Assembly: GCA_017549815.1 (NCBI GenBank)
Contig: JAFYNH010000025.1
Span: forward strand, 1 to 32,244
Direction of reading: 5' to 3'
Source: Selenomonadaceae bacterium
GTDB taxonomy: Bacteria > Bacillota > Negativicutes > Selenomonadales > Selenomonadaceae
Length of the DNA: 32,244 nucleotides
Positions 5,701 through 32,244 of this stretch are shown here, one piece after another. The notes below the pieces were generated by a model. The model saw only the letters and a list, made by a program, of their open reading frames with translations, did not search any database and was not told where the DNA came from. Position 1 is the first letter of the stretch, and the number at the start of each line of letters is the position of its first letter. A program made the translations under genes and the position numbers.

Positions 5701-5939
5701 GTTTCCGCCCCCCCGTCAAGGTTTTTTCAAGTTTATTTCCATAGTTTTCAAACGATCCGGCTTTTTCAAAAATTTTCTGAATTTTTTTCGGAAATTTTGA
5801 AAATTTTGTTCCGTATGCACAAGACGGGGGGCGCACAGTATTTCAGCGCTTCCCGTTTTTCCCTTTTAGGGGGGATCATTTTGCAGCCGTTCCCGGATCG
5901 GATAAATTATTTTTTGCGTCAACGTTTTATTTTGCGAAC

Positions 5940-5966
5940 GCAGTATTATTCACCGCTGCGCCGCCG
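5940..5966. repeat. Direct repeat copy 1, with internal dyad
   Basis: This sequence recurs at 6453-6479 with single-base indels. It holds a short dyad (CGCAG ... CTGCG) around an AT-rich centre. A weaker relative is seen near 5831-5850. Possible roles are terminase binding or a recombination scar flanking the tRNA-like and membrane-protein genes. Confidence 0.7.
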
Positions 5967-5969
5967 GTG

Positions 5970-5986
5970 TTGAATGTTGCATTCAA
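5970..5986. repeat. Short perfect hairpin beside the tRNA-like gene
   Basis: TTGAATG, a 3-base loop, then CATTCAA. In the minus-strand transcript it sits about 10 bases after the CCA end of the tRNA-like sequence. It could mark a processing boundary. Confidence 0.5.
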
Positions 5987-5996
5987 TGGTGGTGCA

Positions 5997-6070
5997 TGGT
6001 AGGGAATGAAGGTGCTGCCCCTTCTTCCCACGGGTCAAAGCCGTGTGCATTGCTGCTATGCTAATTCCCT
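5997..6070 (-). tRNA. Atypical tRNA-Gln(TTG)-like gene with encoded CCA
   Basis: Read on the minus strand, the 74-nt sequence folds as a full cloverleaf. It has a 7-bp acceptor stem (AGGGAAT with ATTCCCT), U8-A9 spacer, 4-bp D stem (GCAT/ATGC), 5-bp anticodon stem (CACGG/CCGTG), loop CTTTGAC with anticodon TTG, 4-nt variable loop, 5-bp T stem (GAAGG/CCTTC), discriminator A and encoded CCA. All 21 stem pairs are Watson-Crick. The D loop is AGCAGCA and the T loop GGCAGCA, so the usual GG and TTCRA bases are missing. The anticodon would read CAA, the Gln codon I see most often in the integrase gene. It is either a divergent tRNA or a tRNA mimic. Confidence 0.6.
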
Positions 6071-6083
6071 TCGTCGGTATATG

Positions 6084-6144
6084 ATATATATAATTATAAA
6101 TTATAATTATTATATTATTATAATTATTATATATATATTATTTT
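6084..6144. other. 61-base pure A/T tract
   Basis: Sixty-one consecutive A or T bases, largely built from TATAATTAT-like units, start 13 bases before the 5' end of the tRNA-like gene (in its direction) and run into the last codons of the membrane-protein gene. It would melt easily and may carry promoter -10-like sequences for the tRNA-like gene, but no -35/-10 pair is decisive. Confidence 0.6.
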
Positions 6145-9797: not shown

Positions 9798-9820
9798 ACA
9801 AGAAGCGTTCGTTTTTGCAA
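9798..9820 (-). promoter_or_regulatory. Possible promoter for the recombinase-like gene
   Basis: TTGCAA (9820-9815) and TATTCT, 17 bases apart, lie directly after the rusA terminator and point toward the gene at 9756. The match is moderate. Confidence 0.35.
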
Positions 9821-9821
9821 C

Positions 9822-9847
9822 AAAAAAGACAAGCGTTCCCGCTTGCC
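9822..9847 (-). terminator. Intrinsic terminator after rusA
   Basis: The minus-strand RNA has an 8-bp stem (GGCAAGCG with CGCTTGTC, one G-U pair), a GGAA tetraloop, and then six T residues. It is 14 bases beyond the rusA stop and probably ends the early operon. Confidence 0.85.
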
Positions 9848-9860
9848 TTTTCTGCCGCCG

Positions 9861-10253
9861 TCATACCGTGTTATCAGTATTGCCCGCAGCCGGTGTAATA
9901 TATACTTCCGTTCGCGGATTTTGTTTGTCGTACAAAACCCGGCTTCCGTCGTGGGATTGAATAACCGTGCAGCAATCGTCCGCAAGCAATCCGGCTTTTA
10001 CAAGCGCGTCGTCAAGCGCTTCAAGCAAATTCGTTAAATCCACGCGCCGCCGCGTTTCCATGTAAAACAGCGCTTTCACGTTCACGGCAAAGTCAATTCT
10101 TTTTCCGCGCGGAATGTACCAAACCGCAGCAGCTTCATATTGCTTGTATTTCTTCGACGGCATAATGAACGGCTTGCCGGTCTGTCTGTTTACAAAGATT
10201 TGCTGCGAATTTTTCTTGCTGATCGGCGCAAGCGGGATTGTAAAACAAATCAT
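9861..10253 (-). CDS. rusA: RusA-family Holliday junction resolvase
   Basis: The 130-aa endonuclease resolves four-way junctions arising in replication and recombination. The family signature is clear: PLAPISKKNSQQIF near the N-terminus, and VDLTNLLEALDDAL followed by LLADD, giving acidic metal ligands Asp72, Asp81/82 and Asp92/93 in the spacing of RusA. The start overlaps the upstream stop (ATGA), and an intrinsic terminator follows, so this is the last gene of the early operon. In some phages RusA helps prepare DNA for packaging. Confidence 0.9.
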   Translation of the reverse strand: MICFTIPLAPISKKNSQQIFVNRQTGKPFIMPSKKYKQYEAAAVWYIPRGKRIDFAVNVKALFYMETRRRVDLTNLLEALDDALVKAGLLADDCCTVIQSHDGSRVLYDKQNPRTEVYITPAAGNTDNTV

Positions 10254-11038: not shown

Positions 11039-12064
11039 TTAACGCGCAAAGTCGTAAAACAAATCGTTCATTGTTATTTGATCGGGATTGTCTTTTTCTT
11101 CGCTTTTCTTTGCAACGCAAAATTGCCTATATTGTTTTGTGTATTCGTAAGACGCGCCAAATATCTTCATACAAGCTTTGTAAAGTTTCGGCTCAAACAT
11201 TTTCATTGATTTTAATTCGTCTTCAACATCTTTTCCATAAGGACAGCCAACGCAACCCGTCCTTTTCAATCCGTATTTTGTATAGCAAGCGCTGTGTGTT
11301 ACACCATTCTTTTTTTCATAAAATTTTTTGTCATTGTCCGTCAGCCAAAAAATCGGTCTAAATGTGTCAATGCTTCCACGTTTTGCGTGTGTATAACACT
11401 CTTTATATGCTGTTGCTCTTGTTCCGCCCTCTGATCTACGAACGCCGTAAACGTTCAAGTCCTCGTCTGATTTTTTCAAGTATTCTTTTGCCGGTTTTTT
11501 CTTTCCATAAATGCAACATTTATTTGATATAGGAATAGTCGGCGGATTTGCAATCAAAAAATCTTTTAGATGTTTGTTGTAATCAATGTTAAATCGTTTT
11601 CCTGTTTTACCTGCTGTATTACACCACCATTTAACAGCCCTTTTGCACTTTGGATATTCTTGCAACAGTTCTTCTTCCGGCTTGTCTTCAAACTTAAAAC
11701 CGTATTTTTGCAACCTTGAAAGCATTTCACTAACGTTTTTTGACAAAAACGGAACGCCATATTCACGAACGCAATTAGGAATGGGCTTAATCGGCGGCAA
11801 TCGCGTAATTGTTACGCCGTACTTTTTTTCTAAAAAGTCCAAGTGGTCTTTTGTTGCTTGATATTCAATCCCTGTATTAAACCAAATATATTGAATTTTT
11901 TTGTCACCTTTAACTTTTTCACATATATCTATCACAATATCGCTGTCGCTTCCGCCGCTGATAGAAACAACAATTTTTCTGTGTCCCATCAATACGTGTT
12001 TAGCTTTTACAATAGCGTCAAACACAGCAAAATTTTCTTCTGTGCCATCAATATAATTTTCCAT
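11039..12064 (-). CDS. PAPS-reductase-family (PP-loop) protein
   Basis: The 341-aa protein has an adenine-nucleotide alpha-hydrolase/PP-loop fold: SISGGSDSD at residues 35-42, then IQYIWFNTGIEYQATKDHLDFLEKKYG, the pattern of phosphoadenosine phosphosulfate reductase-like enzymes. The C-terminal half has paired cysteines (NKCCIYG; TGCVGCPYG), suggesting a metal or Fe-S site. The ATG at 12064 follows an AGGGGGAAAAAAG ribosome site. The gene is noticeably AT-richer than its neighbours, a sign of transfer. Relatives include DndC (DNA sulfur modification) and IbrA; no dnd partners are nearby, so the substrate is unknown. Confidence 0.75.
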   Translation of the reverse strand: MENYIDGTEENFAVFDAIVKAKHVLMGHRKIVVSISGGSDSDIVIDICEKVKGDKKIQYIWFNTGIEYQATKDHLDFLEKKYGVTITRLPPIKPIPNCVREYGVPFLSKNVSEMLSRLQKYGFKFEDKPEEELLQEYPKCKRAVKWWCNTAGKTGKRFNIDYNKHLKDFLIANPPTIPISNKCCIYGKKKPAKEYLKKSDEDLNVYGVRRSEGGTRATAYKECYTHAKRGSIDTFRPIFWLTDNDKKFYEKKNGVTHSACYTKYGLKRTGCVGCPYGKDVEDELKSMKMFEPKLYKACMKIFGASYEYTKQYRQFCVAKKSEEKDNPDQITMNDLFYDFAR

Positions 12065-12080
12065 TCTTTTTTCCCCCTTT

Positions 12081-12938
12081 TTATGCTTCGTCCGCAGCAT
12101 TCAAGCCAAGCAGCGCGTTCATTTCGTCAAAGTCTGCAATCAGCTTTTCTTTGCGCCGGTCTTTGTGCTTTACTTCAAGCGGAACGCACATTTCAAAAAG
12201 CCGGGAATAAATGCGTTGCTTGCGGATTTCTTGCGGGTGCTTCAATTCGTCGCTTGTCAAGTTCGTCGTAACGATCAGCGGCAAACCGGCGCGGTAACGG
12301 CTGTCAATTATGTTCTGCACAATTTCGCCCATGTATTCCGTGTCACGTTCCGAAGCAAGATCATCAATCACAAGCAAGTCAAATCTGTTCAGCCCGTCAA
12401 TATAGTCTTGCTTCCCGTCGTACATTCCCGCAATGGTATTCACAAGCCGCGCAAAGTTCGTCACCAAGCACGGAACGCCCTTGTCAATCAATGCGTTTGC
12501 AATGCAAGCCGAAGCAAACGTTTTTCCCGTGCCAACCTTCCCGAACAGCAGCAGCCCTTTTCCGCGCTTTTTCATTTCGGCAAAGTTCGCAACGTAGTTT
12601 CGCGCAGCCGTGGAAAGCTTTTCGTCCGTCCCGTCGTCGTTGTCAAATGTCCAACGGGAAAGTTCAGCGTCCGGGAAACCAAGTCGCCGCAGCTTTTGAA
12701 CTTCTTGCATTTTCTCGACGCGCTTTCTTTCCGCTTCTTCCGCGTCCCGCTTTTCCGCTGCACATTTGCACAAGCAAAAAGGCGTTCTTATCTCGCCAAA
12801 CAATTCAACGCGGCATTGCTTCGGTGTAAAGCATTTCCCGCAGTATAGCAAACCGTCCTTCACAAAGTCGCCGTCGTCCGGCGCGCTTGACTTTGCTGCC
12901 GCTTTTTCAAGCGCTTCAAATATCGGCTTCATGTCCAT
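12081..12938 (-). CDS. dnaC: DnaC/DnaI-like helicase loader ATPase
   Basis: The 285-aa AAA+ protein loads the replicative helicase at the phage origin. It has an N-terminal Cys-rich region (LYCGKCFTPKQC ... FCLCKC, residues 32-59) likely to bind zinc, a Walker A GKVGTGKT at 133-140, Walker B LLVIDDL at 188-194, and a sensor region LIVTTNLT. The ATG at 12938 is preferred to the upstream TTG since the AAAGGAA site is about 10 bases away. It overlaps the upstream zinc-protein gene by 23 bases. No phage helicase gene is seen, so it presumably recruits the host helicase. Confidence 0.92.
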   Translation of the reverse strand: MDMKPIFEALEKAAAKSSAPDDGDFVKDGLLYCGKCFTPKQCRVELFGEIRTPFCLCKCAAEKRDAEEAERKRVEKMQEVQKLRRLGFPDAELSRWTFDNDDGTDEKLSTAARNYVANFAEMKKRGKGLLLFGKVGTGKTFASACIANALIDKGVPCLVTNFARLVNTIAGMYDGKQDYIDGLNRFDLLVIDDLASERDTEYMGEIVQNIIDSRYRAGLPLIVTTNLTSDELKHPQEIRKQRIYSRLFEMCVPLEVKHKDRRKEKLIADFDEMNALLGLNAADEA

Positions 12939-13566: not shown

Positions 13567-13715
13567 TCTTCGTCCCCCCAATCCGGCAAGTCGTCAAAGA
13601 ATTGTTCCGCCGTTTCGGAATACTTGATTGCAAGCTTGCAGATCACTTCCCCAAGCACAACAAGAAGCCCGATCACGCCGACAACAATGATCCCGCAAAT
13701 CACGTCCGAAAGCAT
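13563..13715 (-). CDS. 50-aa single-pass membrane protein
   Basis: The product starts MLSDVICGIIVVGVIGLLVVLGE, a strong transmembrane helix, and ends in an acidic cytoplasmic-type tail (DDLPDWGDED). It has an AAAGGGGGAA ribosome site and a TTGA overlap with the next gene. Function unknown. Confidence 0.65.
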   Translation of the reverse strand: MLSDVICGIIVVGVIGLLVVLGEVICKLAIKYSETAEQFFDDLPDWGDED

Positions 13716-13732
13716 ATATATTCCCCCTTTAA

Positions 13733-14482
13733 TCAAAAAATATCGTCCAAGTCGTCCGTCTGCCGGTCGTCCAACAAAACGCCGTTTGCGCCGCGTCTGC
13801 TGCCGCTGCCCGTCCTTGCGTTCAAATAGCTTTCAAACTTTGATCCAAACAGCGTTTCCGGGCGCAAATATTTTTCCATGTCCCCGCCTTTCCATTCTGC
13901 GCACTTCTTGTCGATCACGGCAAAAAAGTCTTCCACGGAAAAACCTTCGTTCAGCCGCGCTTCAATATGTCGCGCCGTTGCTTTGCTGCTTGCGCGGTAA
14001 TTCGTCCCGGCTCTTTCGTTCAAGTGTTGAACGATTGCAGCTATATTATTTCGCCTTTCCTGTCCTATCTCTAAACTATCCTTAACTAACCTATCCTGTG
14101 TATCCATGTTGGATACAGATTGTATACACGGCTTTTTTTCGGCTTCTGTATATGCGTTTTTATCGTCAATCGCAAGACGGCTTTTTTCTTCCGTGTAAAG
14201 CGTTTCTTTGTAGCGGTCTTTTTGAATGTAGTTATGAATGCGCCAATGCTTAATTACAATCACGCCGCTTTCAAAAGCAAGAATAAACCGCTTCATTATC
14301 AACAATTTGCAATCGTCGTCGCTTGCGCCGATCATGCGTTGAATTTTTTTCGGATTGTTCACAAAGCCGTCGTCGTCTGCCCGCATTGACAAATGAAAAT
14401 ACAACGCTTGCGCAGAAAGCGGCATATCAAGAAACGCGTCGCTGTCAATAATCGTTTTTGCAAACATTCTTCTTTCTGCCAT
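13733..14482 (-). CDS. Replication initiation (replisome organiser) protein
   Basis: The 249-aa product has an N-terminal winged-helix type domain (MAERRMFAKTIIDSDAFLDMPLSAQALYFHL, FVNNPKKIQRMIG) and a C-terminal domain at about 148-223 (VQHLNERAGTNYRASS...IEARLNEGFSVEDFFAVID...YLRPETLFGSKFESYLNAR) that matches the conserved phage C-terminus found in replisome organisers. It would bind the origin and recruit the DnaC-like loader encoded downstream. The linker DNA (14064-14125) carries repeated GGATA words that may be the origin. The leader holds two interacting hairpins. Confidence 0.88.
   Translation of the reverse strand: MAERRMFAKTIIDSDAFLDMPLSAQALYFHLSMRADDDGFVNNPKKIQRMIGASDDDCKLLIMKRFILAFESGVIVIKHWRIHNYIQKDRYKETLYTEEKSRLAIDDKNAYTEAEKKPCIQSVSNMDTQDRLVKDSLEIGQERRNNIAAIVQHLNERAGTNYRASSKATARHIEARLNEGFSVEDFFAVIDKKCAEWKGGDMEKYLRPETLFGSKFESYLNARTGSGSRRGANGVLLDDRQTDDLDDIF
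14064..14125. other. Candidate replication origin (GGATA repeats) inside the initiator gene
   Basis: On the minus strand GGATAC or GGATAG/GATAG words occur at 14105-14100, 14096-14091, 14081-14076 and 14070-14065. An adjacent GTATCC-AACAT-GGATAC dyad and AT-rich DNA are also present. They fall in the sequence for the poorly conserved linker of the initiator, where many phages keep their origin. Spacing is irregular, so confidence is limited. Confidence 0.4.
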
Positions 14483-14505
14483 TGTTTCACACTCCCAACA
14501 AGAAA

Positions 14506-14544
14506 CCCGTATTGCAAAGCGGGATCGGCGCTTTACAATACGGG
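14506..14544. ncRNA. Hairpin 1 of a kissing-loop pair in the initiator leader
   Basis: CCCGTATTG and AAAGCG arms pair with CGCTTT and CAATACGGG (9 bp, one C-A mismatch, 6 bp), leaving a 7-nt loop, GGATCGG on the plus strand. The loop is the exact reverse complement of the loop of hairpin 2 at 14573-14599. On the minus strand it sits just upstream of the ribosome site of the replication initiator. Confidence 0.75.
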
Positions 14545-14572
14545 TATAATTAGCCGCTATTCATTTTTAGGT

Positions 14573-14599
14573 CGCTGTGCGTCCGATCCACGAACAGCG
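14573..14599. ncRNA. Hairpin 2 of a kissing-loop pair in the initiator leader
   Basis: CGCTGT and CGT arms pair with ACG and ACAGCG (6 bp, one G-A mismatch, 3 bp) around a 7-nt loop, CCGATCC on the plus strand. An alternative 6-bp helix (14553-14558 with 14596-14601) would break its base, so two exclusive folds are possible. On the plus strand GGCTTTTT follows at once, so it could also terminate an antisense RNA. Confidence 0.75.
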
Positions 14600-14613
14600 G
14601 CTTTTTATAGGTC

Positions 14614-14641
14614 TATTTTACTAATAGCAACGCAAAATTCA
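14614..14641 (-). promoter_or_regulatory. Possible promoter of the structured initiator leader
   Basis: On the minus strand TTGAAT is followed after 16 bases by TAAAAT, just upstream of hairpin 2. If used, the RNA would begin shortly before the two hairpins. Confidence 0.35.
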
Positions 14642-14661
14642 AGTATAATATCTGTCGCATT

Positions 14662-15198
14662 TCAAAAATATATTTCCGTGTCGATAAGATCACGCGGCGC
14701 GCAGCGATAAATTTCCGCAAGCGTGACAAGCTGAAACGGTGTCGGGAAGCAAATTCCGTTTTCCATTTTTGACAACATTGCAACGTCAAAATGCGGATCG
14801 CAGTTTTTCCGCATAAGATAGCAAACAACCTTTTGCGTCATGTTCAGCCCTTCCCGCATAACGCGCAAATTGTTTTCAAAGCTGAATTGATCCTTGTTCA
14901 TGCGCAAGACGCGGTTGCACTTCTTAACCGGCGCAAATACGCTTCGCCCCTTGTTCAAGCATTCTTGCTTGTATGCAATGATTTCTTCCAAGTCGTCCGT
15001 TTTATAAAAGCCCTTGTGCTTCCCGGATCGGATCAAAATATAATTGTCGCCGTTGTCGAACGCGCTTAATTCGTGCAATATGCTTCGCACGGAACGTTCG
15101 TCTTTGTCCCACGCGGCGCAAAGTTCCGCGTATGTTGCGGCGTTTTCCCGTCCAACCGGGATTTCCGCCCAAAAGATTTCAAGCGTTAATTTGTCCAT
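14662..15198 (-). CDS. HTH regulatory/DNA-binding protein
   Basis: The 178-aa product has an N-terminal winged-helix-like part (YAELCAAWDKDERSVRSILHELSAF) and a C-terminal XRE-type HTH (FENNLRVMREGLNMTQKVVCYLMRK...VAMLSKMENGICFPTPFQLVTLAEIYRC, about 105-170). A basic stretch joins them. It has an AAAGGGC ribosome site and lies directly upstream of the structured leader of the replication initiator, so it may regulate early or replication genes. It is divergent from the secreted LysM-CAP gene, with 59 bases between starts. Confidence 0.6.
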   Translation of the reverse strand: MDKLTLEIFWAEIPVGRENAATYAELCAAWDKDERSVRSILHELSAFDNGDNYILIRSGKHKGFYKTDDLEEIIAYKQECLNKGRSVFAPVKKCNRVLRMNKDQFSFENNLRVMREGLNMTQKVVCYLMRKNCDPHFDVAMLSKMENGICFPTPFQLVTLAEIYRCAPRDLIDTEIYF

Positions 15199-15257
15199 AA
15201 TTGCAGCCCTTTCTTTTGTTATGTTTTGATTTGCAGCAATCGGGATATATTAAAAGC

Positions 15258-15947
15258 ATGAAAAAACAACTTTTAACTTTGTCGGTTGCTGCCTTTGTCT
15301 TTGGTGGATCGTCCCTTGCTTCCGCGCAGCATTGCACAGTTCAAAACGGGGACAGCTTGTGGAAGATCGCGCAGCGGTACAAAATACCGTTTGAAGAAAT
15401 CTTGAAACACAACGCGCACTTCAAAAACCCGCATTTGATTTTCCCGCTTGATAAAGTCGAATTGCCGGATCACACGGAACACGGCACGTCAACGGATCAA
15501 CATTCAAAGTCGGACAACATAGAAACCGGCGACAAGAAGGTTGAACAAAGCGCCCCGTCGGAACAAGCGGAAGCCGTGCTTGCGTTGGTAAACCAAGAAC
15601 GCGAAAAAGCCGGATTGAAGCCGCTGAAAATGTCGGAAGAACTGCGGTCGATCGCAAATCTAAAAGCGCGCGACATGGCAGAAAATAATTATTTCAGCCA
15701 TACTTCCCCGACATACGGCACGCCGTTTCAAATGCTGCAAGACTTCGGCGTTCATTATCGCGCAGCCGGGGAAAACATTGCAGCCGGTCAGCGCACGCCC
15801 GAAGAAGTTATGAACGCATGGATCAATTCAAGCGGTCATCGTGCCAACATTCTAAACGCGAACTTTGATACGTTGGGCGTTGGTGTATATTCCGGCGGAT
15901 CATACGGCATTTATTGGACGCAGCTTTTCACGGGCGACGGGGAATAA
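15258..15947 (+). CDS. Secreted LysM-CAP domain protein (possible lysogenic conversion gene)
   Basis: The 229-aa precursor has a signal peptide (MKKQLLTLSVAAFVFGGSSLASA, cleavage likely after residue 23), a LysM domain at about 26-69 (TVQNGDSLWKIAQRY), a polar linker, and a CAP/SCP domain at about 105-225 with His148 (YFSHTSP), GENIAAG and GHRANILN motifs. It resembles host-type YkwD/SafA-like cell-wall proteins. It is alone on the plus strand inside a minus-strand early operon, and a hairpin follows its stop: features of a moron expressed in the lysogen. The start at 15258 is chosen from the signal peptide; the ribosome site is weak. Its target is unknown; cell-wall localisation is likely. 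Confidence 0.85.
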   Translation: MKKQLLTLSVAAFVFGGSSLASAQHCTVQNGDSLWKIAQRYKIPFEEILKHNAHFKNPHLIFPLDKVELPDHTEHGTSTDQHSKSDNIETGDKKVEQSAPSEQAEAVLALVNQEREKAGLKPLKMSEELRSIANLKARDMAENNYFSHTSPTYGTPFQMLQDFGVHYRAAGENIAAGQRTPEEVMNAWINSSGHRANILNANFDTLGVGVYSGGSYGIYWTQLFTGDGE

Positions 15948-20057: not shown

Positions 20058-20384
20058 ATGTCAAACGAAATCGGCGCAAAGCTGAAAAACCTTCGGAAAA
20101 GCCGCAGATTGACGCAAGAAGAATTTGCGGAAATGATCGGCGTTTCCCGGTCAACGCTTTCATGCTATGAAATCGGGCAGCGCACGCCGTCAATGAAGAC
20201 GCTTCAAGCGATCGCGGAAAACTGCGGCGTTGGGCTTGACTATTTTGGCATATCAGCAAAAGACGAAGCTTTTGATTTGCTTGCACGCGGGAAACTTGTT
20301 TTTGAAAGCAAAATGATCCCCCGCGAAACAAAAGAGGAACTTTACACGGAATTTATGAAACTGTATTTGAAAATGAAGGAATGA
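20058..20384 (+). CDS. CI-like repressor (XRE family)
   Basis: The 108-aa protein has an N-terminal XRE HTH (residues 5-59: IGAKLKNLRKSRRLTQEEFAEMIGVSRSTLSCYEIGQRTPS) and a short helical C-terminal part, with no LexA-type peptidase domain, so induction by self-cleavage is unlikely. It is divergent from the early operon and 7 bases before the integrase gene, the standard place for the lysogeny repressor. The ribosome site is GAAGGACGG. Confidence 0.85.
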   Translation: MSNEIGAKLKNLRKSRRLTQEEFAEMIGVSRSTLSCYEIGQRTPSMKTLQAIAENCGVGLDYFGISAKDEAFDLLARGKLVFESKMIPRETKEELYTEFMKLYLKMKE

Positions 20385-20391
20385 AAGCAAA

Positions 20392-22002
20392 ATGATTATT
20401 TACAATGACAAACACGAAGAAACGCGCCAAGTGATCCGCGCGGTCGTTTATATCCGCTTTTCTTCGCACAAGCAGCAAGACAGCTTTTCGATTGAATATC
20501 AACAAGAAGAATGTCTGCGCTATCTTGAAGCAAAAGGATATAAATTCGTAAAATTTTATATTGATGAAGCCAAAACAGCGAAGGAAACCGCCGGACGGGA
20601 AGCGTTGGAAGAAATGCTTTTTGACGCGGGACGCAATAAATTTGATCGGATCGTTGTTTTCAGCTTTTCCCGTTCTTTCCGTAATACGCGGGACGCGCTG
20701 AACACAAACCACGAATTATATTCAAAGTACAAAATCCCGATTGAAAGCGTTATTGAACCGATAGACTTGACAACGGCGCACGGGAAGTTCAGCGGGACAA
20801 ACCTTTTCGCAATGCACGAATTACAATCCGACATAACAGCGGCGCACGTTCGTTCGGGAATGTATGTCGCAGCAAAACAAGGTTATTATTTGGGCGGTTA
20901 TGTGCCTTTCGGTTACGGGCTTTATGAAACCGGGGAATTGACGCGCGGGAAGGCGCGGAAAAAGTATTGCGTCAATGAAGAAGAAGCGCAAATTGTAAAG
21001 CTGATCTTTGAAATGTACGCAAACGATTATTCTTTGAATTACATTCGGGACGAAATGATTAAACGTAACGTGATCGCCCGCAAGGGAAATGTCATGTCAA
21101 TTCAAACAATGTGCCGTATTCTGCGCAATCCGTTTTATATCGGAACGCGGGAATATCAAATTCAAGGTTACGAAAAGCTATTTCTTGAAGGTGCTGTTCC
21201 GGCAATCATTGACGTTGATATTTGGAACACAGTTCAACAGAAAAACAAAGCGAACGCGCTTGCTGCGCCACGCAAAACAAAGCGCTTTTATGCTCTCACG
21301 GGAAAGATTTTCTGCGCAGCTTGTAACGCGCATTATTTCGGAATGTATAAGACGCAAAAACAAGATAATATCGACGGTTACGCATATTATACTTGCAGCA
21401 CAAAGAAGACATATCACACTTGCAAAGCAAAAAATATCCGCAAAGACATTCTTGAAGCATATTGCATTGAACAGATCAAGAAGCACGTTTTAACGCCGGA
21501 CAAGATCAAGGAAATTGCCGCGTTTATCGTGTCGCAGACAGACAGCACGCCGGATTTGCTGATTGAAGAACGTGACAGCGCGGAAAAGCGCAAGCGCGTT
21601 GTTATGGACGCATTGAAGCAAATTGAAGTAAAAAAAATCGAAGCCAACGAAGCAATGCAAGAAGTTTATTCGGAAATGATTGCGGATTATTCCAAAGAAT
21701 TAACCGCGCTGAACGAAAAGCTTTCCCGCCTTGAAACAATCGAAACAACGGTTATTTCTGCGGAACTTGTAGAACAATATTTGCAAGATTGCGCTTTGAA
21801 TATCGAAAGCAACGATCCGCACGTTTTGAAAAGCGTGTTTGACAAACTCATTGACAAGATCGTTATACATGACGACAAGGTTGAATTATTCTTGCTCGTC
21901 TTTCCTTATCCCCACATTAGGGACAACGCCCCGCAAGGACAACCATGTTGGACGTTATGTGCAGAAGTAAAGCGTAAAACGTTAAACCCGTTTGAACGCT
22001 AA
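20392..22002 (+). CDS. int: Large serine integrase
   Basis: The 536-aa site-specific recombinase integrates the phage. It has an N-terminal resolvase domain (about 15-160) with catalytic Ser24 in YIRFSSHKQ and the FSFSRSFRN arginine region, then a recombinase domain (about 180-285; VPFGYGLYE, RILRNPFYIG), a zinc ribbon (FCAACNAHYFG...YYTCSTKKTYHTC), and a coiled-coil segment (about 375-450). These are the standard domains of large serine integrases. It is co-transcribed with the repressor. The attP site is usually next to the gene but cannot be picked out by eye. Confidence 0.95.
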   Translation: MIIYNDKHEETRQVIRAVVYIRFSSHKQQDSFSIEYQQEECLRYLEAKGYKFVKFYIDEAKTAKETAGREALEEMLFDAGRNKFDRIVVFSFSRSFRNTRDALNTNHELYSKYKIPIESVIEPIDLTTAHGKFSGTNLFAMHELQSDITAAHVRSGMYVAAKQGYYLGGYVPFGYGLYETGELTRGKARKKYCVNEEEAQIVKLIFEMYANDYSLNYIRDEMIKRNVIARKGNVMSIQTMCRILRNPFYIGTREYQIQGYEKLFLEGAVPAIIDVDIWNTVQQKNKANALAAPRKTKRFYALTGKIFCAACNAHYFGMYKTQKQDNIDGYAYYTCSTKKTYHTCKAKNIRKDILEAYCIEQIKKHVLTPDKIKEIAAFIVSQTDSTPDLLIEERDSAEKRKRVVMDALKQIEVKKIEANEAMQEVYSEMIADYSKELTALNEKLSRLETIETTVISAELVEQYLQDCALNIESNDPHVLKSVFDKLIDKIVIHDDKVELFLLVFPYPHIRDNAPQGQPCWTLCAEVKRKTLNPFER

Positions 22003-31974: not shown

Positions 31975-32244
31975 TTAGTTCGCTGTGAAAAGTGTTGCTG
32001 TATCAACGGAAACGTGTTTTTCCCAAGTTTCTTCCTTGCCGTTATATTCCCAACTCAAATCATAAGTCATAAAACGACAACTTGTCGGGCTTCCTTCGGT
32101 AATGTCAAACGTATATGCGCACAAGGTCGGCGCGTCCCCTTGTTCCGTTTGATTAACGTCAACAAACGTTGCAAGCAGCCTTTCCGCAGTAATATTGTCA
32201 ACAAAATAAATTTTTTTGCCTGCTTGAATAGCTGCAACAACTTG
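31975..32244 (-). CDS. Putative head fibre / capsid decoration protein, C-terminal part
   Basis: This continues the gene that begins at 504; bases 32244-32113 repeat the coding of positions 132-1, and 32112-31975 give the last 45 residues (TFDITEGSPTS...VSVDTATLFTAN). It reads through as one 213-aa frame on the circle. The C-terminal half (from about residue 100) looks like a globular beta domain without a recognised motif. Confidence 0.6.
   Translation of the reverse strand, partial: QVVAAIQAGKKIYFVDNITAERLLATFVDVNQTEQGDAPTLCAYTFDITEGSPTSCRFMTYDLSWEYNGKEETWEKHVSVDTATLFTAN
32113..32244. repeat. Right copy of 132-bp terminal duplication
   Basis: Exact copy of bases 1-132. Joining at this repeat gives a circle of about 32,112 bp and restores one intact 213-aa gene across the joint. 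Confidence 0.95.

Follow-up and report, generated by a model that had tools for sequence, protein, structure and literature searches.

Does the short interval ahead of a phage replication initiator gene hold an RNA control of the kind that sets plasmid copy number and, if so, on which strand and through which pairing would it act? We considered this question in a contig from a Selenomonadaceae bacterium, analysed over its whole length of 32,244 nucleotides (referred to here as the window). The two ends of this 32-kb stretch (positions 1–132 and 32113–32244) consist of 132 identical bases, because of which the contig is probably a complete circular or terminally redundant phage genome and not a prophage with host flanks. 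The phage carries terminase, portal, capsid and tape-measure genes, together with a serine integrase gene (20392–22002) adjoined by an XRE-type repressor gene (20058–20384), and its replication block lies on the minus strand.

The presumed controlled gene (13733–14482, minus strand) encodes a DnaD-like replication initiator of 249 residues, which matches phrog_5708 ('DnaD-like helicase loader', E 4.8e-74) and phrog_428 ('replication initiation protein', 4.5e-36) in PHROG as well as Phg_2220_C in Pfam (3.1e-30). Its start is supported by many relatives that begin at the same residue, among the matches listed, and a Shine-Dalgarno-like GGGAG (14492–14496, minus strand) stands 9 nt before the ATG at 14482–14480. 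Upstream and also on the minus strand lies a gene for a 178-residue regulator (14662–15198), a probable C-terminal-part HTH protein that matches Pfam HTH_31 with an E-value of 2.8e-4, under the curated cut-off, and phrog_3 ('transcriptional repressor') with 2.1e-4. The gap between the two ORFs measures 179 bases (14483–14661). Elsewhere in the neighbourhood, a LysM and CAP-domain gene (15201–15947, plus strand; 'sporulation protein' in PHROG) stands beside the HTH gene on the opposite strand, and occupies the same position in a relative, L098 (63%); a PAPS reductase-like gene (11039–12100, minus strand) adjoins the helicase-loader gene.

The preliminary description had reported two hairpins with exactly complementary 7-nt loops in the gap between regulator and initiator. 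An inverted-repeat search recovered both in these places: one repeat at 14505–14521/14529–14545 (17 nt, 94%, plus-strand loop GGATCGG) and one at 14573–14582/14590–14599 (10 nt, 90%, plus-strand loop CCGATCC). On the minus strand, the first forms hairpin B (14505–14545, −26.2 kcal/mol), whose 17-bp stem is uninterrupted and includes one U-G pair, so that the single mismatch ascribed to each stem does not hold for this hairpin on that strand; the mismatch of the second, smaller hairpin is unpaired on either strand. Hairpin B presents the loop CCGAUCC (14522–14528), is followed by UUUCUUGUU (14505 counted as the first U) and leaves 22 nt between its end and the initiator start codon, with the GGGAG outside both hairpins. 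The smaller hairpin (14573–14599; −11.1 kcal/mol, or −12.6 kcal/mol with flanks) presents the complementary loop GGAUCGG (14583–14589), and a 7-bp duplex between the two loops is predicted at −10.8 kcal/mol.

Folding of the gap was stronger than that of shuffled sequences on both strands (z −5.25 plus, −6.33 minus), with none of 200 shuffles as good on either. Among 1606 overlapping 140-nt segments of the minus strand of the phage, the gap has the lowest GC-corrected energy, and the three best segments all lie on it (z −4.9, −4.6 and −4.4; next region −3.5); on the plus strand it ranks fifth among 1606. All three imperfections in the stems of hairpin B and of the larger hairpin A described below can pair as G-U on the minus strand, one of them (U-G) in hairpin B and two (G-U) in hairpin A; at the same places the plus strand has A-C mismatches. 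Because the minus-strand fold is the stronger and the imperfections can pair on this strand, the modelled structure most probably belongs to the initiator mRNA. Two other structured places were seen in the window: a plus-strand hairpin-rich stretch (5741–6142) with the lowest plus-strand z (−3.65), holding a terminator-like site (5825–5855) and AT-rich tandem repeats (6084–6142), and a 19-bp hairpin, uninterrupted if G-U is allowed (9817–9858, minus strand), which has a strong terminator-like site (d 39.1) and adjoins a RusA-like gene (9861–10253).

A 6-bp pairing had been proposed to compete with the smaller hairpin and to give two exclusive folds. The pairing exists, but only as part of a 13-bp stem (14590–14602 with 14552–14564) that encloses the smaller hairpin, and the two alternative folds, although both predicted, are unequal: the enclosing structure, hairpin A (14552–14602), is the minimum-energy and centroid fold on the minus strand, and 12 of its pairs give −24.0 kcal/mol, compared with −12.6 kcal/mol for the inner hairpin. 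In stepwise folding of the growing RNA, the inner hairpin appeared when transcription had reached 14560 and was gone once the outer stem formed from 14552 onwards, while hairpin B folded at once on transcription in the nascent lengths examined, and blocking hairpin A did not prevent this. Stepwise folding of the leader predicted no nested antiterminator or pre-emptor pairing against hairpin B; any switch in this leader must therefore be loop-loop pairing.

Such pairing appears geometrically possible. In the outer fold, hairpin A has a 25-nt loop with GGAUCGG at its beginning, where the motif is predicted to be mostly free to pair with the CCGAUCC loop of hairpin B. The inner hairpin lies 27 bases from hairpin B and the outer form leaves 6 bases between the stems; the outer form could still kiss despite this short spacing because its large loop supplies slack, and by our own estimate from rough helix dimensions, intramolecular loop-loop pairing is possible in either fold. 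A stretch within the initiator coding sequence (14325–14341, minus strand) is complementary to the loop region of hairpin B over 17 nt (82%, −20.2 kcal/mol); it lies in a conserved protein stretch, and we set it aside as a third pairing partner, its complementarity being probably coincidental. A four-codon ORF inside hairpin A was likewise put aside, with no ribosome site visible by eye.

For terminators, we used a score d of T-tail and stem energy, following the d'Aubenton-Carafa formula and applying a T-tail filter of our own. In the window, sites with d > 14 number 5 on the minus strand and 7 on the plus strand. Hairpin B, whose T-tract is interrupted, scores d 24.6 on the minus strand, third of the 5; on the plus strand, hairpin A gives a terminator-like hairpin (14571–14609; stem 14571–14601, loop CCGAUCC, tail TTTTTATA) with d 14.9, the weakest of the 7, and the T-run noted earlier after the smaller hairpin is present (GGCTTTTT at 14599–14606). 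When the gap was shuffled 1000 times with dinucleotides preserved, no shuffle reached d 24 in the sense direction, 4 reached d 14 in the antisense direction and none did both. The earlier idea of an RNA leader gains support from this combination of a favoured initiator-sense strand with two opposed terminator-like hairpins. An unconditional terminator at hairpin B would silence the initiator, and therefore partial or regulated read-through is to be expected.

Promoter-like sequences occur on both strands, at positions that would suit such a leader. On the minus strand, TTGAAT-16-TAAAAT (14615–14642; a weak 9/12 match) predicts an RNA that starts near 14608, with hairpin A following after about 6 nt, and on the plus strand TTGCAA-16-TACAAT (14512–14539; 9/12, chance level) lies within hairpin B. 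Since 13600–15400 contains 3 promoter-like sites against a shuffle mean of 3.2, which equals chance, it is their placement alone that is suggestive. Hairpin B has one stem irregularity, and it falls on position 2 of the −10 box of the plus strand, as might be expected if stem and −10 box both constrained the sequence. Taken together, the plus-strand promoter-like and terminator-like sites would delimit a putative antisense RNA of about 63 nt (14546–14608), complementary to the whole of hairpin A. Five plus-strand ORFs at 13.4–15.1 kb, one of them spanning hairpin A, matched nothing in PHROG, and in Pfam only one of them had a match, below the cut-off; because no recognised plus-strand gene lies there, the plus-strand terminator signal suggests a local counter-transcript and not a gene end. 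The idea of a terminated antisense RNA, raised in the preliminary description, gains support from the terminator-like site; the promoter-like match is at chance level.

How surprising is the loop match itself? A random 7-mer of the phage finds its full complement within a random 25-mer with P = 0.0036, and a random 25-mer of the phage contains CCGATCC with P = 0.0046. GGATCGG occurs 15 times in the window, both loops counted, against 1.75 expected, and 501 of the 5064 strand-merged 7-mers in the window are at least as frequent. Among neighbouring minus-strand hairpins, a 7-nt loop match was seen in 2/50 pairs with stems of at least 10 bp, one of them this element, and in 5/282 pairs with stems of at least 9 bp, two of them from this element; with stems of at least 12 bp, a loop match of at least 6 nt was seen in 1/5 pairs, namely here. 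The complementarity is therefore suggestive: it is unusual, not negligible as chance and no proof, and the proposed kissing interaction depends on one 7-nt match of a motif common in this phage.

Relatives were taken from the best 80 of 295 initiator matches and from genome loci. At 98 loci the initiator match begins within the first 12 residues, and 77 distinct upstream stretches, the window's included, were kept as leaders, leaving out loci with less than 120 nt upstream or with an identical stretch. The projected start is TTG or GTG in 18/77 leaders and no start codon in 2/77 (L054 and L095). L008, L010 and L042 align from ATA or ATC but have a GTG in frame three codons earlier, so that these starts are probably ordinary; at L099:2863, the alignment of the initiator begins with ATC, a TGA stands in frame two codons before it, and a rare start codon is possible.

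In this set (best 80 of 295 matches and genome loci), the hairpin element was absent from the 76 other leaders folded, a sense terminator-like site was present in the window's leader only (1/77), and antisense terminator-like sites were present in 8/77, window included, the other seven having d 2–7 and six of these being near-identical sequences. The nearest syntenic relatives among the matches listed, L098 and L099, carry extra ORFs between the HTH and initiator genes. L098 shares 83% with the window in the exonuclease, 60% in the HTH protein, 71% in the helicase loader and 47% in the initiator over residues 56–249, and L099 shares 81% in the exonuclease, 58% in the HTH protein and 82% in the initiator over residues 1–113. 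Hairpins A and B are missing in both, stems and loops alike, and the best terminator-like site has d 5 in the stretches scanned. This outcome is neither of the two named in the preliminary description as refuting, namely stems kept with the loop complementarity lost, or a region that no RNA covers. In L102, the HTH gene adjoins the initiator across an unstructured gap (z 0.26), while L082 (3583–3764) has the HTH-gap-initiator order with a three-way-junction leader of unrelated sequence (z −2.8); neither gap has a terminator-like site. L030 has a strong leader fold unrelated to that of the window (z −4.88). As a class, initiator leaders are not more structured than other starts preceded by a gap (16 with gaps of at least 40 nt versus 43 control starts, one-sided P = 0.77), and values below the lowest control (−4.3) belong to the window (−6.0), L030 (−7.1) and L038 (−4.5).

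Searches for second copies returned the same picture. The stem pattern had 0 matches in viral_contigs, and the paired-loop pattern search and the hairpin A arm search had 0 matches each. A 201-base region around the element found only itself in its own genome and among 66 genus genomes (own included), no DNA similarity in plasmids (PLSDB) and 7 short, chance-like matches in phages (E 0.6); no Rfam 15 covariance model reached its gathering score anywhere in the window, and the 6 sub-threshold matches within 14450–14680 each scored far under it. The HTH protein matched nothing in phages or PLSDB plasmids and only itself in 189 family genomes. The order-level search took in these same 189 genomes as the family-level one. 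As a single query, the HTH protein found 1 locus in viral_contigs, and its alignment A1 found 7 loci there, 0 confirmed among 86 candidate stretches in genome_contigs, and 5/380 in class genomes, four of them weak partial matches and the fifth the window. Within the data searched, the element is therefore confined to this phage, which fits a quickly evolving regulatory RNA; PMC12112137 remarks on the poor conservation of small RNAs.

The most likely reading of these observations, which we put forward tentatively, is an attenuator leader of the initiator mRNA under the control of a short counter-transcript. It builds on the computed features, namely two strong structures, a strand preference, opposed terminator-like signals and loop complementarity; the two promoters, the existence of an antisense RNA, contact between the loops inside the cell and the direction in which control would run are inferred. 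The initiator mRNA would have the gap as its 5' leader, an RNA brake on the replication genes, with transcription beginning just upstream of hairpin A and hairpin B, directly ahead of the ribosome site, serving as an intrinsic terminator (attenuator) that only a fraction of transcripts would pass to reach the initiator and the genes behind it. In the nascent RNA, the hairpin A loop would pair with the hairpin B loop and disturb the terminator. The short counter-transcript would start inside hairpin B, end at hairpin A and pair with hairpin A, for which it would compete because it carries the same CCGAUCC loop as hairpin B; by displacing hairpin A from hairpin B, it would close the leader as genome copies rise. 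The full loop-competition version, in which a phage with an integrase and a DnaD-like initiator lets loop-loop pairing, with no nested antiterminator, decide termination, is doubtful. Against the attenuator with a counter-transcript stand the missing nested antiterminator, the chance-level promoters, the interrupted T-tract, the lowest rank of the plus-strand site among its seven, the common loop motif and the absence of the element from L098 and L099, the nearest syntenic relatives found; the gaps of L102 and L082 and the ordinary degree of structure of initiator leaders as a class also speak against it.

A structured leader or attenuator that works without any antisense RNA, the loop match being coincidental, is a rival reading that we regard as possible but rather unlikely. 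Here, hairpin B might be an early-operon terminator, passed by antitermination or leaky, or the hairpins might protect the 5' end of the mRNA or insulate the ribosome site. The terminator-like character of hairpin B, the minus-strand promoter-like site just before hairpin A and the frequency of GGATCGG in the phage all agree with it, as do the strong hairpins that precede the initiator in L086, L030 and L038 with no sense terminator-like site; however, it gives no account of the terminator-like signal on the plus strand, at a place with no end of a recognised gene on that strand, and it has to accept a loop match with a probability of about 0.004.

That same plus-strand signal is accommodated by a convergent promoter like that of lambda OOP, acting through transcription interference or through antisense pairing towards the HTH gene, with the sense structure of minor importance. 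The position, in the interval between a regulator gene and an initiator gene, does match pO-oop-tO as outlined in PMC3985674 and PMC5869508, but the putative RNA here ends 53 nt before the HTH stop codon, where OOP in these accounts overlaps cII by 52 bases, and the minus-strand structure is stronger than that of the plus strand, so we judge this explanation improbable.

Equally improbable in our estimation is an element acting at the DNA level, as an operator of the HTH protein or part of a replication origin, in which the palindromes would function as duplex or extruded DNA. A 17-nt inverted repeat next to the HTH and initiator genes would suit such a role; yet the region 13600–14720 lacks a tandem array, its direct repeats are all short and in two copies, its GC skew keeps its sign, and the imperfections of the stems fit RNA pairing on one strand. 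Least probable is that two ordinary terminators, one per strand, lie side by side by chance with a fortuitous loop match and no regulation, since, although both hairpins score as terminators and none of the relatives examined has the element, an ordinary terminator as close as 22 nt to the initiator start would silence a gene presumably needed for replication, and 0/1000 shuffles yield both signals.

If the attenuator with its counter-transcript is correct, RNA control in the style of plasmid copy number would reach the replication switch of an ordinary temperate phage with a protein initiator and an integrase, and the gap would constitute a compact natural attenuator tuned by loop-loop competition. 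Such controls would also come and go quickly, as the other arrangements in the nearest relatives found suggest.

The likeness to plasmid copy-number logic, raised in the preliminary description, extends to a terminator-like hairpin directly 5' of the initiator and stops at the pre-emptor, of which none is predicted, and at the ribosome site, which is unsequestered. In I-complex plasmids (IncI/IncB/IncK), a pseudoknot joins the upstream loop to a second stem-loop close to the start of rep; this second stem-loop sequesters the ribosome site, and the leader encodes a peptide. For such a pairing, the window offers the 7 complementary nt of its two loops. The YUNR loop motif of this group is missing from both loops here, GGGAG at 14492–14496 lies outside hairpin B, and no convincing leader peptide was seen by eye. 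What the window would share with them, its own RNA being putative, is the plan of their RNAI, an antisense RNA of about 60 nt directed against an upstream stem-loop, in the portions of PMC10724649 consulted. With pT181 repC it has in common a short antisense RNA against the leader (87 nt in pT181, putative here) and a terminator-like stem-loop directly before the initiator, whereas in pT181 the ribosome site is predicted to lie within this stem-loop, which a pre-emptor can pair with, according to the relevant passages of PMC5703833; in the window, the ribosome site is outside hairpin B and no pre-emptor was found.

Closer in layout is the copR-RNAIII-repR cassette of pIP501 (Inc18). Staphylococcal plasmids of this kind, as portrayed in passages of PMC5703833, have an HTH gene upstream of rep, a rep promoter, a leader with an antisense promoter within it and, just 5' of the start of rep, an inverted repeat that carries a T tail, and the window has the same layout, its promoters being putative. 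The window differs in being a phage with a DnaD-like initiator, in a leader of about 126 nt against about 320 nt in the staphylococcal plasmids (PMC5703833, same passages), in having no predicted antiterminator and a putative antisense RNA, and in the lack of similarity of gap DNA or HTH protein to PLSDB plasmids; where pIP501-type copy control uses an HTH (XRE) gene, the upstream gene here matches HTH_31 only below the cut-off (E 2.8e-4).

Among phages, the preliminary description knew of no such element, but the lambda pO-oop-tO region between cII and O, at least as outlined in PMC3985674 and PMC5869508, is comparable. It produces a convergent, short, terminated RNA, and the convergent promoter affects replication, while OOP RNA is reportedly without effect on O-P mRNA stability (PMC3985674, PMC5869508, in part); OOP is found at the same place in prophage BTP1, from what PMC7067206 says of it. 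Like the window, this is a regulator/initiator interval of a temperate phage with a short convergent RNA, putative in our case. Unlike OOP, which in these accounts overlaps cII and is antisense to it, the putative RNA here would cover the initiator leader only; the window has in addition a sense terminator-like hairpin, and its plus-strand site stops 53 nt short of the HTH ORF, into which some read-through may occur.

An RNA antisense to the 5' UTR of an initiator is also known from a chromosome: ArrA of Bacillus subtilis, a 267 nt antisense RNA overlapping the 5' UTR of dnaA and conserved only in some Bacillus species, resembles the putative RNA here in its target and differs in serving chromosomal dnaA and in having no kissing hairpins described, in the sections of PMC12112137 drawn upon. 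Extrachromosomal mycobacteriophages share a non-coding RNA in prophage replication, but these are parABS phages without repA, whose RNA is required for replication and does not restrain an initiator, so far as the excerpts of PMC7157519 go. Among the matches listed from the open-access literature, no paper dealt with a phage initiator of the DnaD-like kind controlled by antisense RNA or by an attenuator. Overall, the gap holds a real, unusually structured leader, which we consider a candidate variant of plasmid- or lambda-type RNA control.
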